Below are positions 53,280 through 60,397 of a stretch of DNA of 64,000 nucleotides, one piece after another. Numbering within the stretch: position 1 is the first letter of the stretch; every line of letters starts with the position of its first letter. The stretch is from Algisphaera agarilytica. Its GTDB lineage: Bacteria; Planctomycetota; Phycisphaerae; Phycisphaerales; Phycisphaeraceae. The notes beneath the pieces were generated by a model. It searched no databases and was not told the origin of the DNA. It saw only the letters and a list, made by a program, of their open reading frames with translations. A program made the position numbers and the translations under genes. The stretch covers positions 2,734,836 to 2,798,835 of the forward strand of contig NZ_JACHGY010000001.1 of the NCBI RefSeq assembly GCF_014207595.1. Reading direction: 5' to 3'.

Positions 53280-54320
53280 ATGACCCAGACCCGCACCTCC
53301 TCGACCTCGGGCGCTTCGACTTCCTCCGAACCTGCAAACGCAAGTCCGCCGAACGCCACGTCGCGTTCGTGGATGATCGGAGCGCACGTGTTGTTGCTGG
53401 TGCTGGCTTCGGTGGTGGCCTGGGCGACGATGGGACGTGACCCGGGCAACGCCGCCGACGCGTCGGTCGCCACGGCGTTGCCGCACGAGCTGATCGAGTC
53501 GTCCGCATCGGAGCAAGGGGCCGAACTTCAAACGCCGCACACGGTGGCGACTTTGTCTCCCGCCAAACTCGATCAACCGAGCTTTACGCAAGTCGAAGAA
53601 CCCGAGGTTGCGCAGCCCAAGGTTTCGCAGCCCGCGGTGGAGGTGAAAACAGCCCAACCCGCCGAGTCGTTCAAGCCCATGGTGGCGTTGCCCCAGCCCG
53701 ATGCCGTGTATCCCCCCGTGATGCCCACCGATCCGAAAGACGATCCCTACTACGAGATCGGCGGCCTCTACGGCACGCCCGGCGCGACCCGTGTCGTCTA
53801 CCTCATCGACGCGTCGGGCTCGCTCATCGATACCTTCCCCTTCATCCTTGAAGAACTGCAGCGTTCGATCCATCAGCTCCAGCCCGAGCAGTCGTTCGCA
53901 GTCATGTTCTTCGCGGGCAGCAAGGTCACTGAGGCCCCGCCGTACGGCATGAAGCGGGCGACCACCCGCGCGGTGCAGCACACCAGCCAATGGATCGACC
54001 CCGGCTCGGGACGCATCATCGCTTCGGGTCGGCCGAATGCCGACGCCGCGATCCGGCGAGCCCTGGCTTATCAACCCGATGCCATCATCCTGCTCAGCGA
54101 CGGCCTGACCGGCGGCGGCGACAAGGCCCTGGCCACCCGTGCCCGCCTGCTCTCGCTGATCGAAACGGCCAACACCCGCGACGTGGTCTTTCACACCCTC
54201 CAGGTCCGCCGCCCCGACCCGCTCTCCACCCCGACCCGGCTAGGCACGTTGGAACTCATCGCGATGCAGTCCGGCGGCGTCCACCGTTACCTCGGCGAAG
54301 AAGACCTCCTGCCCGAGTGA
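53280..54320 (+). CDS. TonB-like anchored vWA protein, intact MIDAS
   Basis: 346 residues. A cytosolic Ser/Thr-rich N-terminus is followed by one membrane helix at about residues 32-50, then a Pro/Val/Glu-rich periplasmic linker of about 100 residues, then a von Willebrand factor A domain. The metal-ion-dependent adhesion site is intact: DASGS (Asp177, Ser179, Ser181) and the distal SDG (Asp274). The shape (N-in helix, stiff linker, C-terminal domain) is that of TonB, with a vWA in place of the TonB domain. It heads an operon with ExbB and two ExbD genes. The ATG lacks a ribosome site. Confidence 0.8.
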   Translation: MTQTRTSSTSGASTSSEPANASPPNATSRSWMIGAHVLLLVLASVVAWATMGRDPGNAADASVATALPHELIESSASEQGAELQTPHTVATLSPAKLDQPSFTQVEEPEVAQPKVSQPAVEVKTAQPAESFKPMVALPQPDAVYPPVMPTDPKDDPYYEIGGLYGTPGATRVVYLIDASGSLIDTFPFILEELQRSIHQLQPEQSFAVMFFAGSKVTEAPPYGMKRATTRAVQHTSQWIDPGSGRIIASGRPNADAAIRRALAYQPDAIILLSDGLTGGGDKALATRARLLSLIETANTRDVVFHTLQVRRPDPLSTPTRLGTLELIAMQSGGVHRYLGEEDLLPE

Positions 54321-54434
54321 GCCCCAGTCGGGGAGCCACACTCGCCGTTCCGGATGGCACATCGGTTAAGATGAGACTTTGCGGTGTCCGTACGCCGCGA
54401 ACTGATCTGCATCCGATCGTGGGAACGCGTCTCT

Positions 54435-55712
54435 ATGTTCTGGTTGGGTTTTGCTGAAAACTCGCCCCCCTCCGGGGAGGACCCGCCGGACGTCGGACCG
54501 AGCAAGTCGCTGTTCACCGATGCGGATGACGACGAGTTGCTGGACGCCTCGGACCTGGACGCGATCGACGAATCGATGCAGCGGGCCGGCGGAGTGAAGC
54601 CCGGGGCTCCAGCAGAAGATTACGAACCGGATGAAACTCCGCTCGACGAGCCGGAGGAAGACGACGCCATCGATCCCGCCGCCGCGGACGCTTCGATTGC
54701 TTTTGTCGAGGCGCACGGCGTCGACGGCCCGCCCCCGGCTGAGGACGAACCCGACAGCCCGATGGTCTGGTTGGTCCCCTGGGTGATCTCGCTCCTGGCC
54801 CACGCGGGCCTGGTGATCGTGGCGATCTTCGTGGTGTGGTCGGTGCAGAAGGTTCTCGATGACGAGCAGGTCGTGGTCCCGCTGGTCACGCTCAGCGACA
54901 CACCCGGCACCCCGCTGGAAGTCGAGGTGGTGCAACGCGTCGAGACGCAGACGCCCACCGTCGCCGCGCCGCCCACGCCCGAGCCGACGCCGCTGGAACT
55001 GGACCTCGAGCTGGACCTGGAACTGCCCGGCCTGGGCGAGCCCGCCGCGGCCTCGGCCCCGTCGTTCGAGCTGAGCCTGAACGACGCCGCCGAGTTCGAC
55101 ACCAACTTCTTCGGCAGCGGCGGCAACGCGAAGAACATCGTCTTCGTTGTCGAGGCCGATGGTTCGATCATCAGTGACTATCCGCAGATTGTGAGCGAAC
55201 TAGCGATCTCTCTCAGAGATATGAGCGAGAAGCAACGGTTTAGTGTGGTCGTTTTTGATGGGGACGGAACCAAAGAAGTGCCGCCCAGGGGGCTGAAGCG
55301 TGCAACCGCTGATGCAAAAGGCCAAACCATTAGCTGGCTGCGCGATACTAGCAATGTCAGAACCAGAGGGTCGGGGGATGTAACTGACGCGTTGAAGCGA
55401 GCGTTTAGAGTTAAGCCTGACTTGATCTTCTTGCTATCTCAAAATCTTTACAATCCGGGTCGTGGTGAGTTTGAAATCCAGCGTGATCTAATTATCGATG
55501 CAGTAACGAAAAATAGCCGTGGCATTGTTATCAATACCATTGAGTTCAACGATTTAGATCGTTTGGCATTTAAGAAAGATGGTAAAGGGGAATTTGTGAC
55601 AGATGATGATGGTAATCGGATCAAGGTCCGAAAGACCCTTATGGAAGAGATCGCCCACATGACCGGTGGCGAATACCTTGCGGTGACCACCAATGTGCTA
55701 CCCGATGAATAA
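54435..55712 (+). CDS. TonB-like anchored vWA protein, degenerate MIDAS
   Basis: About 425 residues from ATG 54435 (GTG at 54384 is the alternative). An acidic cytosolic tail of about 95 residues precedes one membrane helix (VWLVPWVISLLAHAGLVIVAIFVVW), a Pro/Glu/Leu-rich periplasmic linker and a vWA domain. That domain is recognisably related to the previous one, sharing PP-x-G-x-KRAT. Here the metal site is lost: DASGS became EADGS (Glu240) and the distal SDG became SQN. The first half is GC-rich, but the segment at about 55180-55690 is far less so. It is probably a structural partner of the previous protein. Confidence 0.75.
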   Translation: MFWLGFAENSPPSGEDPPDVGPSKSLFTDADDDELLDASDLDAIDESMQRAGGVKPGAPAEDYEPDETPLDEPEEDDAIDPAAADASIAFVEAHGVDGPPPAEDEPDSPMVWLVPWVISLLAHAGLVIVAIFVVWSVQKVLDDEQVVVPLVTLSDTPGTPLEVEVVQRVETQTPTVAAPPTPEPTPLELDLELDLELPGLGEPAAASAPSFELSLNDAAEFDTNFFGSGGNAKNIVFVVEADGSIISDYPQIVSELAISLRDMSEKQRFSVVVFDGDGTKEVPPRGLKRATADAKGQTISWLRDTSNVRTRGSGDVTDALKRAFRVKPDLIFLLSQNLYNPGRGEFEIQRDLIIDAVTKNSRGIVINTIEFNDLDRLAFKKDGKGEFVTDDDGNRIKVRKTLMEEIAHMTGGEYLAVTTNVLPDE

Positions 55713-55728
55713 TCGAATAGGAAAACCG

Positions 55729-56499
55729 ATGTCGATGCATCCCATGATTAAAACCGTTATGCCCGCCACCGCACTCGCGGTGTTGACGTTGGCCGTGAGC
55801 CCCGCTCGGGCGCAGGACGACCCCGCCCCCGCTGCTGAAGGCGGCGCGAGCTTCTTCCAGGCGTTCTTCTGGTCGGACGATCTGCTGGGCCTGGCGATCA
55901 TTTGGCTGCTCATCATCGCGTCGTTCATCAGCCTCGGGCTGACGCTGGTGTTTGTGATGCGGTATCGCCGGGTGAACCTGCTGCCCGACGACACGCAGTC
56001 GGGCATCGAGAAGTTTCTCTCGGCCAAGCAGTACCGCGAAGCGATCGCCTTTGCGAACAACGACCCGAGCTACCTCGGCCGGATCACGGCTTCGGCGCTC
56101 AACGAGGCGGGCAACGGCTACGCCGCCATGGAACGCGCCCTGGAAGAGTCCGGCGACGCCGAGGCGACCCGCATCCTCCGGCCCATCGAGATCCTCAACG
56201 TCATGGGCAACATCGCCCCCATGCTCGGGCTGTTCGGCACGGTCTACGGCATGATCGTGGCCTTCCAGACGCTCGTGGATGCGGGCGGCGGGGCGGACCC
56301 GGTCGAGCTTGCCGCGGGTATCTCCACCGCGCTGGTCACGACGTTTTGGGGTTTGGTGGTGGCGATCCCCGCGTTGGCGTCGTACGCAGTGGTGCGGAAC
56401 AAGATCGATGCGATCACGGCCGAGGGTTTGGTGCAGGCCGAGCAGTTGATCAAGCCCTTCCGCCCGTCGCGGAAGAAGCGTTCTTCTTCGGATAAATGA
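55729..56499 (+). CDS. ExbB/TolQ/MotA-family proton-channel protein
   Basis: 256 residues from ATG 55729 (AGGA 8 nt upstream). An N-terminal signal-like helix ends ARAQDD, a short periplasmic loop follows, then helix 1 (LAIIWLLIIASFISLGLTLVF), a cytosolic domain and the characteristic MotA_ExbB segment NVMGNIAPMLGLFGTVYGMIVAFQTL with the final helix LVTTFWGLVVAIPALASY. With ExbD it forms an inner-membrane proton-driven motor. The N-terminal signal-type extension occurs in a subgroup of ExbB proteins. Confidence 0.9.
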   Translation: MSMHPMIKTVMPATALAVLTLAVSPARAQDDPAPAAEGGASFFQAFFWSDDLLGLAIIWLLIIASFISLGLTLVFVMRYRRVNLLPDDTQSGIEKFLSAKQYREAIAFANNDPSYLGRITASALNEAGNGYAAMERALEESGDAEATRILRPIEILNVMGNIAPMLGLFGTVYGMIVAFQTLVDAGGGADPVELAAGISTALVTTFWGLVVAIPALASYAVVRNKIDAITAEGLVQAEQLIKPFRPSRKKRSSSDK

Positions 56500-56506
56500 A
56501 TTGTTC

Positions 56507-56570
56507 GTTTAGCCTGCGATCGCAGATCGCCGTTCTCCCCGGCACGCGGGTCTGCGATCCGCCGCTAAAC
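56507..56570. repeat. Imperfect palindrome between exbB and exbD1
   Basis: GTTTAGC...GATCGCAGA pairs with TCTGCGATC...GCTAAAC across a 20-nt centre. It sits inside the operon and may tune the exbB to exbD ratio. Confidence 0.6.
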
Positions 56571-56596
56571 CAAGTGTTCGTATCGGAAACACCAGC

Positions 56597-57085
56597 ATGT
56601 CGAAAGTGGTCCAACGCGGCGCAGTTGCCCCGAGCATGAACATCACGCCGTTGATCGACGTGGTGTTTCTGTTGATCATTTTTTTCATGCTCGTGAACAA
56701 CATCGTCTCGGAAGAAACCGTCGACATGGTGTTGCCCGAGCTCGAAGACCCGCAGACGCGCGAGTTGGGTGATGTGGATCGGATCGTGATCAACGTGGCG
56801 CCCGAGCCGTTCACCCGTCAGGGCCGGGCCGAGTTCCCGTTGAGCCACACCGGGACCGCGAGCTACATCAAGATCGGCACGGGCTCGAACTCCCGCTTCG
56901 AGATCACTGACATCCCCGGGATCACCGAGAAGCTCAAGCAGGTCAAGGCCCAGCGGCCGGAGGTCGAAGCGCTGCTGCGGGCCGACGGGGCGATCTACTA
57001 CGACGTGATGGAGCCGGTGATGGATGCGCTCAGCACCGCCGGGATCGAGACCGTGAACCTGGTGGCCTACATGCCCAGCGACTGA
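56597..57085 (+). CDS. ExbD/TolR-family protein, copy 1
   Basis: 162 residues. A short cytosolic N-terminus, then the family's membrane helix with its essential aspartate, MNITPLIDVVFLLIIFFML, followed by a periplasmic domain of about 120 residues ending DALSTAGIETVNLVAY. It forms the rotating or proton-conducting core of the ExbB/ExbD motor. It lies 4 nt upstream of a second exbD. Confidence 0.9.
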   Translation: MSKVVQRGAVAPSMNITPLIDVVFLLIIFFMLVNNIVSEETVDMVLPELEDPQTRELGDVDRIVINVAPEPFTRQGRAEFPLSHTGTASYIKIGTGSNSRFEITDIPGITEKLKQVKAQRPEVEALLRADGAIYYDVMEPVMDALSTAGIETVNLVAYMPSD

Positions 57086-57089
57086 ATCG

Positions 57090-57638
57090 ATGGCTGACCC
57101 GCACCCCGTCCAACCCGACAGCCCCCACGAGGCGACCGTGCACCACCGCTCGACGCGGCAGCGCCGCGGGCGACGCCCCGCGATGGTCGGCGAGCTCAAC
57201 CTCACGTCGATGATCGACGTCATCTTCCAACTGCTGATCTTCTTCGTTGTGACCGCCAACTTCATGATCGACGAGGGTGTGCTCAGTGCGAAGCTGCCGC
57301 AGGGGGCCGGCTCGCCCACGGCGTCGGATGAATTGCCCCGGGAGAAGATCACCATCCGCCTGATGTCGGACCCCAGCGACGATGCGCTGGTGAGCATCGA
57401 ACGCGGCCCGGTGGGCAGCCCGATACGCTACGCCAGTTTCGGCGAACTCGCGGCGGACCTCGACCGTCTGAGATATGACCCCGACGGATCGCGCCTCGAC
57501 GGGATCTACGAGCCCGACAACCCGGTGTTGATCGAGCCCCAAGGCACGGTGCGTTGGCAGCACGTGGTCAACGCGTTCAACGCCGCGATCTCGGCCAAGT
57601 ACACCAATGTGAGTTTTGCACGGTCGAATCAGCCGTGA
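57090..57638 (+). CDS. ExbD/TolR-family protein, copy 2
   Basis: 182 residues. A longer His/Arg-rich cytosolic N-terminus, then GELNLTSMIDVIFQLLIFFVV with the aspartate of the family, and a larger periplasmic part. The two ExbD copies share little beyond the helix, so they are likely to form a hetero-oligomer with the ExbB pentamer rather than be redundant. It is 38 nt from the TPR gene. Confidence 0.9.
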   Translation: MADPHPVQPDSPHEATVHHRSTRQRRGRRPAMVGELNLTSMIDVIFQLLIFFVVTANFMIDEGVLSAKLPQGAGSPTASDELPREKITIRLMSDPSDDALVSIERGPVGSPIRYASFGELAADLDRLRYDPDGSRLDGIYEPDNPVLIEPQGTVRWQHVVNAFNAAISAKYTNVSFARSNQP

Positions 57639-57676
57639 GTGCGCAACGCACCCCCAAGAGCCGGAGGACTGGCCGA

Positions 57677-60397
57677 ATGAAAGCATGGATGACACGACGC
57701 GGGGCCGCGATGCTTTGCGGGCTTCTTTTGGTGCTGGCGAGCCCCGGTGCTTATGCCCAAGCAGGTCCGTCTCTGGCGGACCCGGCCGTGCAGAAGTTCC
57801 TGACCTACCTCGAAAGCACCGGCGAATTCGACGGCACCGCCTCAACCGTTCTCAAGCAGATCGACACGCTCCGTGCAGCGGCCCGCGACTCCAAACTTTC
57901 TGGGCAGGAACGGCTGACCCAGTTCAACGAAGCACGCAAACTCCTGCGCGGGCTCATCGACAACCCCGAGATGGAGAAGCACCCGCTGCGTCCGGTCTGG
58001 CGGACCGAGCTCGCGGAGATGTTGCTGGTGACCCACCTCCAGGGGTTCCGCCGATCCGCGCCCGGCTTTGTGGAGTTCGGCGTGCCGACCGCCAACCAAC
58101 GCAAAGCCTTTGAACAGGATGTGCCCATCGCGTTGGCGATGCTGATCCAGGCCAGCCAGGAGTTCCGTGATCTTGAAGCGCGTCTTGATCGTGATACCGC
58201 GCTGCGTGAGCAGATCGAAACCTCGCTGTTGAACTCACTGGTTTTCGATCAGTACCGCGACCAGAAAAACGCGTGGTTTGCGGCGAACGCGGCCTATTTT
58301 GCGACGCTGCTGGGGGACGAGCATTCGTTCTTCCTGGGCGGAAATATGACGGCCGACAAGAAACGGGCGGAGATGCGTGGCGTGGCGATGTCGATGCTCC
58401 GGCCGTTTCTCGACGGCGACATCGGCGGCGACGCATTGCAGGCCCGTGCCCAGTCGCTGGCCGGGCGTGTCTTGCTGAGTGGGGGCGAGGCGGACCGGGC
58501 CGAGGCGGAATACCTCGCCCCGGCAGTGGCGAATCCGGCGTGGAATTCCGACCGTTTGGCGGCCTCGATCGCGCGGGCCAGCGCCATCGAACAGCAGGGC
58601 AAGCCCGACGTGGCGGAGGTCCGGTTGGCCGAGTTGTCCAAACGCTCGGCGGTCCGCGAACGGCTCGACGATCGACTCCTGGTCGCCGACGCCTTGCACC
58701 TGCTTCGGCTCCGCAAAGCGGAACAAGCGCAGGACGCTGAGCGGGACGCGTTGATCACGCAGGCGTACGCCGCCTATTTCGAGTTGCTGAATGACCCGGC
58801 CCTGGGCAACGGTGCGTCGGCGCTGCGGAACCTCATCTACGATCGCTGGGCGTCGTCGATCCCCGCGGAGGCCGATGCGCAGACGATTCAGTCGTTGCCC
58901 GGCGCGGTGCGTGTGGCGGTGGCTGATATTTCACGCCGAAGAGGTCTGCTGTGGTTGCAGCGCGGCGAGGAAGAGGCGGGGCGGACATCGCTGCAACGCG
59001 CGATCGATTTCGCACAGACCGTGGACGACCGGGACGCCGTGGGTGACGAGGTCTGGGCCGACGGCCGTTACAACCTGGCCTACGCCACCTACGCGCTGAA
59101 CCCCAAGAAGCTGAGCAGTCTTCTGTCGGCGGCAGAGGTTTCGACATCGGTGGCCGAGCAGACGCCGACCCTGCCGGTGGCGACCGACGCGATCGATCTG
59201 GCGACCCGGCTGCTCGAATCGTTGCACCGCAATTACGCCGACCAGCCCGGCGTGACGCCGGCGTTCGAGCGGGCGATGGGCGTGCTCTACGACTCGGGCC
59301 ACTTCGACACCACCAAGCCCGCCGACGATCGACTGGTGTACTACGCCTACGCGATGTTCCAGTCGCGGGGCGACTACGAACAAGCGGCCGAGCTTTACAA
59401 CCAGCAGCTGCGGACCCACCCGAACTACCTCCAAGCCCAGGCCCAGCGGGTTTCGGCGTTGACGCAGTGGTACGAGCAGACCCGAGAAGGCTCCAAGCGC
59501 AACCGAATCGAGTCGGACCTGCTCGATGCGGCCCGTCGGGTGTCGGCGCAGGCCCGGCCGGTGCTGGCTGATCCGGCGCAGTCGGCTAAGGCGGACGGCG
59601 CCGCGCGTACACTGGCTAACGCCAAGCTGGCCGAGGCGCAGGTGCTCGCGACACGCGGCGATCTCGACGGAGCACTCGAAAGCATCGCCGGTTTTGAATC
59701 GGAGTTTGCCGACCGCCCCGGACTGGCTCAGCTCGGGCTGGAGCGGCGCATCTTGCTGCTGGTCGAGGCCGACCGTCTGGACCAGGCGCAGGAAGCGGCG
59801 GGGACGATGATGGGGCGGTACCCCGACGCCGCGGCGGGCGTGATCAACAACGTGCTCAACGACATGGAACGCCAGATCGAGCAGCTCGGCGACGAGTCGC
59901 CCGACTCGGCCAAGCTCGCCGAGGCGGCCGCGGCGATGGCGAAGCTGCTCGCGGACTGGGCGCAGGGCCAGGGATATGAGGCGAGGCAGATGCTGCCGTA
60001 TCGCTTGGTGGTGCTCAAGTCGTTGCGTATCGCGAACCGCCCGGACGAGGCGTTGGCTTATCTACGTGACACGAACCTCGAAGCCGAGTTCGGCAACAAC
60101 GTGGATGTGCTGTTCGAAAAAGCCCGTGCTCTGGTGAGCAAGGGCGACCCCGCTTCGCTGCGCGAGGCGACGCCCATCCTCAACCGCATCATCGGCGGGC
60201 TGACCGAGCCGTACCCCGACACCTACTGGCGGTCGTGGATCGCCCGGCTGGAGGTCAACCTCAAGCTCGGCGAGCGTGTCGCCGACGTCCCCCGACGCGT
60301 GCGCCAACTCGAACAGACCCACCCCGAGCTCGGGGGCGAGCCGTTCAAGAGCCAGCTCAAGGAACTGGCCATCGAGGCCCAGCGGCGGGGGCTGTAG
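57677..60397 (+). CDS. Secreted TPR-repeat protein of the vWA/ExbBD operon
   Basis: 906 residues from ATG 57677, with GGAGG 9 nt upstream. A GTG at 57635 overlapping the exbD stop is an alternative. A signal peptide (GAAMLCGLLLVLASPGAYA) leads an all-helical mature protein with pairs of helices of TPR type, for example YYAYAMFQSRGDYEQAAELYNQ and ALESIAGFESEFADRPGLAQLGLE. It would lie in the periplasm or at the outer membrane and scaffold the motor's partners. The stop codon falls in a hairpin GGGGCT/AGCCCC. It is the last gene of the operon. Confidence 0.82.
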   Translation: MKAWMTRRGAAMLCGLLLVLASPGAYAQAGPSLADPAVQKFLTYLESTGEFDGTASTVLKQIDTLRAAARDSKLSGQERLTQFNEARKLLRGLIDNPEMEKHPLRPVWRTELAEMLLVTHLQGFRRSAPGFVEFGVPTANQRKAFEQDVPIALAMLIQASQEFRDLEARLDRDTALREQIETSLLNSLVFDQYRDQKNAWFAANAAYFATLLGDEHSFFLGGNMTADKKRAEMRGVAMSMLRPFLDGDIGGDALQARAQSLAGRVLLSGGEADRAEAEYLAPAVANPAWNSDRLAASIARASAIEQQGKPDVAEVRLAELSKRSAVRERLDDRLLVADALHLLRLRKAEQAQDAERDALITQAYAAYFELLNDPALGNGASALRNLIYDRWASSIPAEADAQTIQSLPGAVRVAVADISRRRGLLWLQRGEEEAGRTSLQRAIDFAQTVDDRDAVGDEVWADGRYNLAYATYALNPKKLSSLLSAAEVSTSVAEQTPTLPVATDAIDLATRLLESLHRNYADQPGVTPAFERAMGVLYDSGHFDTTKPADDRLVYYAYAMFQSRGDYEQAAELYNQQLRTHPNYLQAQAQRVSALTQWYEQTREGSKRNRIESDLLDAARRVSAQARPVLADPAQSAKADGAARTLANAKLAEAQVLATRGDLDGALESIAGFESEFADRPGLAQLGLERRILLLVEADRLDQAQEAAGTMMGRYPDAAAGVINNVLNDMERQIEQLGDESPDSAKLAEAAAAMAKLLADWAQGQGYEARQMLPYRLVVLKSLRIANRPDEALAYLRDTNLEAEFGNNVDVLFEKARALVSKGDPASLREATPILNRIIGGLTEPYPDTYWRSWIARLEVNLKLGERVADVPRRVRQLEQTHPELGGEPFKSQLKELAIEAQRRGL

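Follow-up and report, generated by a model that had tools for sequence, protein, structure and literature searches.

Force transducers that carry a von Willebrand factor type A (vWA) domain were described in 2025, encoded beside TolQ, two TolR and a tetratricopeptide repeat (TPR) gene, and the account given of them lists their function as unknown (Williams-Jones et al., PMC12204202). As that account has it, proteins of the Tichowtungia family, from Planctomycetes–Verrucomicrobia–Chlamydiae (PVC) bacteria, combine a Ser/His membrane helix, a Pro-rich linker of ~100 residues and a vWA end domain, and one TPR, one TolQ-like and two TolR-like genes adjoin them. Here we analyse an operon of this kind in a 64,000-nucleotide stretch of the Algisphaera agarilytica genome (contig NZ_JACHGY010000001.1, positions 2,734,836 to 2,798,835 of the forward strand), called the window below and numbered from its first base. 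Six open reading frames (ORFs), all on the + strand at 53280–60397, encode two vWA proteins (vWA1 and vWA2), ExbB, two ExbD proteins and a secreted TPR protein, here T. The operon fits the published kind apart from gene order, a partial helix motif and a doubled vWA gene. Whereas the vWA gene of the published family lies downstream of the TPR, TolQ and TolR genes, the window has its vWA genes first and T last; it has two of them, one without a metal site, and only Ser and His of the SHLS motif are kept. Gene content, the modelled folds of vWA2 and T, and the conservation of motif and gene order form the basis on which we read the operon as probably a trans-envelope force transducer with vWA-tipped arms, driven by the proton motive force. 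Four features go beyond the published description: a further partner protein, P; a permuted gene order of Verrucomicrobiota type; the near-universal occurrence of such vWA proteins (V) in the class Phycisphaerae; and two oppositely diverged arms.

A first-pass annotation of the window had listed the six genes as tightly spaced on one strand, and the ORFs confirm this, with intergenic gaps of 63, −20, 97, 4 and 38 bases. Its idea, in print since 2025 (PMC12204202), that an ExbBD motor is fitted with TonB-like arms ending in vWA domains is supported by Pfam, the helix motif and the fold. Well over the Pfam cut-off were the ExbB/TolQ-like proton channel protein (55693–56499; signal-like N-terminal stretch; MotA_ExbB 6.6e-30, also assigned by alignment) and ExbD-like proteins 1 (56597–57085; 4.1e-21) and 2 (57090–57638; 6.9e-17). 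vWA1 matched VWA_3 slightly under cut-off (9.6e-6), vWA2 was hardly visible (0.036 only) and T gave a weak match. The operon shares the ExbB/ExbD motor, a Ser/His helix arm and a flexible linker with TonB-ExbBD and TolQRA, but its arm ends in a vWA head where theirs have the TonB/TolA end domain, and it has two ExbD proteins as well as TPR partners. We ruled out that this is an ordinary TonB or Tol operon, as domain searches of both vWA proteins found no TonB/TolA C-terminal domain and the host genome is without TonB_C. In the last ExbB helix (window 56320–56370) the family consensus is GISTALVTT; one locus (L137) has Glu at its Thr and others differ there. E. coli ExbB carries Glu at this Thr position as well. 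Promoter-like sites (0) and terminator-like sites (11, compared with 5.5 expected) were not used as evidence.

The two arms have the same general build. By its sequence, Pfam match and class-wide relatives, vWA1 (53280–54320, +) has an N-terminal helix, a Pro-rich linker and a vWA domain; its transmembrane helix, residues 31–51 (53370–53432), carries His36 and has Met in place of the motif Ser at −4. vWA2 (54384–55712, +), which starts at 54384 (GTG) or 54435 (ATG), has an acidic N-terminus, a W-x2-S-x3-H helix (~residues 130–153 by motif table and model, 54771–54842; Ser136, His140), a linker and a vWA fold. A helix His could be identified in 101 motor-linked V proteins; 91 of these have Ser at −4, and 79 have Trp at −7. 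The S-x3-H motif was found in 89/102 motor-linked V proteins versus 17/663 other hydrophobic segments, these being the best segment of each unlabelled ORF of the loci and not a curated gene set. As the helix His was chosen as the best candidate within hydrophobic surroundings, its count is biased, and it is the Ser at −4 and the S-x3-H control that carry weight. V linkers have a median of 93 residues with ~10% Pro. The vWA proteins look like TonB-type transducers with one transmembrane helix, a linker of ~90 residues and a terminal vWA fold.

The vWA fold of vWA1 was assigned from the sub-cut-off Pfam match and its relatives. Because the Pfam score of vWA2 is weak, its fold was assigned from an AlphaFold2 model (64 aligned sequences) and the titles of Foldseek matches. 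The model has a helix at residues 127–159, a disordered linker and an alternating strand–helix core from residue 239 on, and its block-mean predicted local distance difference test (pLDDT) score is 90–98 over residues 251–350, 47–95 beyond and low in the linker. Matches in the PDB were, by title, vWA domains (4fx5, 1shu, 1ao3, 1oak) and BatB (3ibs, 2.4e-8); the rank-1 match, judged by title alone, was a chain from an entry named for a viral capsid. The first-pass annotation had proposed that a vWA head with a metal-ion-dependent adhesion site (MIDAS) clamps a partner, which for vWA2 needs correction. vWA1 has all the residues, D-x-S-x-S (DASGS, 53808–53822) and a later Asp, whereas vWA2 has E-x-D-x-S (EADGS, 55152–55166) and Gln at the last Asp position, as does its congener (locus L094). 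The site is complete in 80/102 motor-linked V proteins, and in 18/79 motor loci no V has the full D-x-S-x-S and Asp set. The proposed clamping of a partner by MIDAS would therefore fit vWA1 only and is not supported as a general principle, given vWA2 and these 18 loci.

Judged by their sequences, the two transducers are diverged in opposite directions: vWA1 has kept the metal site and lost the helix Ser, and vWA2 has kept the helix motif and lost the metal site. In a FastTree phylogeny of 51 vWA domains, the first V genes of the window, L094, L020, L105 and L014 formed one clade (support 0.998). Ser at −4 is absent from every one of them (Met, Val, Ala, Ala and Ala, in this order) but kept in the second V genes of all five genomes. 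Among the second genes, those of L014 and L105 retain the whole metal site, that of L020 has it partly altered, and those of the window and L094 no longer have it; these are small numbers throughout. Ala at −4 also occurs in a few single V proteins elsewhere (L098 and L101, and L026 via a doubtful His). The vWA-domain part of vWA2 (55160–55692) has 47.7% G+C, with 50% at third positions versus 85% in the first part of the gene, and the 500-base stretches with the lowest G+C in the window fall inside it; vWA2 of the congener L094 is mostly at 65–67% G+C, with 56% near the gene end. The low-G+C part of the window gene stops at the point from which P is absent, so it may be imported DNA or mark the scar of a deletion.

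The gene order is kept far outside the circle of close relatives, so that this refuting condition of the first-pass annotation did not come about: V(-V)(-P)-ExbB-ExbD-ExbD-TPR recurs class-wide in Phycisphaerae and elsewhere in Planctomycetota. Searches with vWA1 gave matches in 260/298 genomes of the class, and searches with vWA2 in 48/51 genomes of the family. We fetched 100 regions (80 from the vWA1 and 20 from the vWA2 search), and as these were picked by V matches, the frequencies in them are not unbiased: V, ExbB and ExbD stand together on one strand in 77, and 68 have at least two ExbD genes and T too. Twenty further class regions gave 17 and 16, respectively. Outside the class, in 19 regions from 15 genomes of the same phylum (the underlying tally counts L146, a class member, as well), V, ExbB and ExbD occurred together in nine, with T in five. 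The counts over the 102 motor-linked V proteins exclude ORFs of <200 amino acids and loci without ExbB. The clustering of motor genes with V is not due to chance. The ExbB alignment was used to scan named genomes, and the best 80 loci were kept, some of them weak matches. Among these, the order V-(P)-B-D-D-T (B, ExbB; D, ExbD) was present in Phycisphaerae, Phycisphaerales, Pirellulaceae and Planctomycetales records. Verrucomicrobiaceae and Opitutaceae records (L203, L201) had the permuted order T-P-B-D-D-V, and two Kiritimatiellae records (L183, L193) had T-P-B-D-D with no V detected within the available stretch. The alignments comprised 64 V proteins (A2; the V1 model matched 129 ORFs), 39/68 T over the score limit plus that of the window (A3), 27/39 P (A4; 15/18 gap ORFs in the P model, three weak or wrong-frame ones excluded) and 38/82 ExbB plus that of the window (A5). 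Four operons (L087, L088, L111, L113) have three ExbD genes rather than two, and runs of four vWA genes with no motor detected in the stretch occur at L063 7092–13019 and L089 6767–10238. The listed neighbour families that recur by the operon, considered as a clue to function, seem unrelated and lineage-bound as judged by eye.

T (57677–60397, +), whose start is corrected here from the first-pass annotation, is a large protein with a signal-like N-terminal stretch, modelled as an all-helical, TPR-type superhelix (mean pLDDT 92.3). Its Foldseek matches were mostly eukaryotic TPR-type scaffolds, with a chain of the Campylobacter flagellar-motor periplasmic scaffold at rank 21. In many relatives a second secreted protein, P, is encoded between V and ExbB; its start is signal-like, its N-terminal domain is small, and it carries TPR repeats, which are chiefly what Pfam reports. 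We had considered the V–ExbB gaps of 1–1.5 kb in relatives as overlooked second vWA genes and rejected this, as most of them encode P. Section 8 of the published account has one TPR gene and no P (PMC12204202). P is present in 42/79 motor loci and matches at 1e-10 in 57/101 class genomes. The congener (G299) has the order V-V-P, whereas in the host genome no full P was found (best match 0.002, short stretches only). Within the first 60 residues, a lipobox-like motif occurs in 9/85 T and 5/55 P proteins, some of these in doubtful frames.

We compared the presence of P with the state of the metal site. No V protein has a complete MIDAS in 4/42 loci with P versus 14/37 without (Fisher p 0.003). 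For the 18 two-V loci, both sites are complete in 14/14 with P, and one is incomplete in 4/4 without P (window, L020, L081, L083). However, of the 18 loci that have no complete site, 17 belong to families f2 and f4, so the association may reflect descent; the change in L081 and L083 is Ser to Thr only, and in the congener L094 P coexists with a site-less vWA2. We treat P as a putative MIDAS ligand only as a lead. T may be the partner that the heads grip, and P is an equal candidate.

The host genome holds five MotA/ExbB-family genes, one of which adjoins a MotB-like gene. A second cluster, ExbB-ExbD-TPR-vWA (~G000:C1:1026066-1032017; L123 3067–9018, minus strand), resembles the operon in its motor, TPR protein and a vWA protein (~610 amino acids, well recognised by Pfam) with an S-x3-H helix. 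It differs in that one ExbD was found, the vWA gene comes last, and the vWA protein is longer, with only 61 bits to the window V model. A further host vWA protein (L092 6392–8677; 761-amino-acid open frame) carries a hydrophobic stretch in its middle and lacks S-x3-H.

In the transducer that we envisage, ExbB and the two different ExbD proteins would form an inner-membrane motor using the proton motive force, and the vWA proteins would dock on ExbB via their TonB/TolA-like helix; vWA transducers of this kind have been proposed independently, with a modelled helix–motor contact (PMC12204202). The arms would cross the periplasm on the flexible linker, and the head would bind a partner in the periplasm or outer membrane, with T the likeliest candidate, plus P where present; the machine may have a role at the outer membrane. 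vWA1, with a full metal site and a weakened motor motif, and vWA2, with an intact motif and no metal site, may act as a pair. Several observations weigh against a transducer. Beyond Ser and His the SHLS motif is not kept, with Leu at +7 in 16/101 and Ser at +11 outside the six commonest residues, and vWA1 of the window itself is without the helix Ser. Four loci (L044, L048, L049, L050) have V and T together with no motor genes in the fetched stretch. Lys and Arg are only weakly biased around the helix, with more on the N-side in 53, equal numbers in 21 and fewer in 27 (n = 101). The V proteins of the four motor-less loci are without parts of MIDAS, and in genomes related to them (L227–L229) another V stands with ExbB, two ExbD and T.

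The weak charge bias and the strongly acidic N-terminus of vWA2 would suit vWA domains that are cytosolic, in an operon that is no transducer. Against this, the TonB-like helix motif lies near the N-terminus and is followed by a Pro-rich linker, and the same operon encodes the periplasmic domains of ExbD along with T and P, both secreted. We consider cytosolic heads highly improbable; nothing points to this topology, which the first-pass annotation had named as a refutation, although the charge evidence is weak. A sharper form of the transducer reading is a stand-in for Tol-Pal, in which the machine would hold the outer membrane and draw it in at division, with T and P as CpoB- or TolB-like periplasmic parts, in a class that has no recognisable TolB. 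In an inventory of 101 class genomes (G000–G100), V matched at 1e-20 in 100, a match that alone is no proof of an adjoining motor, whereas TolB_N was found in 0/101 (7/199 in the phylum), TIGR02800 over cut-off in 0/101 and TonB_C in only 47/101, with none in the host. However, sub-cut-off TolB-like propellers occur in 78/101 genomes, the host included, so a diverged TolB may exist; most T and P proteins are without the lipobox-like motif, and no phenotype is on record. In a word search, the main text of a study of Planctopirus essential genes (PMC10632474) does not name the operon genes, and a 2026 review that cites the vWA transducer paper does not contain the words 'vWA' or 'von Willebrand' (PMC12905483). 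On balance the Tol-Pal stand-in is a tentative proposal and somewhat doubtful.

The absence of TonB_C from the host genome and the TonB-like arm would also agree with an energiser of nutrient import that replaces TonB, in which large substrates would enter through an outer-membrane channel opened by the vWA heads. TonB-dependent receptors are found in 41/101 class genomes, but the host has a single sub-cut-off, stop-containing match, genomes with TonB and receptors carry V too, and no channel gene is among the listed neighbour families that recur by the operon, which makes import an unlikely function. In Myxococcus AglRQS-Glt, a single ExbB-like protein goes with two of ExbD type and with TPR partners, and the arms end in domains other than vWA. 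The operon resembles this system in parts, and a similar surface machine might move adhesins or polysaccharide, a comparison also suggested by the vWA transducer account, where vWA heads are said to be often adhesive (PMC12204202). Gliding and glycan genes are not among the listed recurring neighbours, however, and motility is not on record for the organism; we judge a surface machine to be improbable as well. Returning to the force transducer, a broader proposition is that Phycisphaerae as a rule rely on a vWA-tipped motor, rather than on Tol-Pal or TonB, to bring the proton motive force to the outer membrane, with a two-armed version in the lineage of the window that pairs a metal-binding, weakly coupled vWA1 with a motor-coupled, metal-free vWA2. 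Taken as a whole, this proposition is speculative and rather unlikely to hold.

Planctomycetes have been described as being without FtsZ (PMC5147048), and the operon bears on how they energise and draw in the outer membrane. Because TolB was not found and V is nearly universal in the class, outer-membrane maintenance is the most interesting testable reading, and a near-universal motor operon in a class where no genome of the inventory has TolB_N allows the question to be tested directly. For the first binding partners, P and T can now be named as candidates. The paired arms, each without what the other has kept, are a natural experiment on the functions of the parts of a force transducer.

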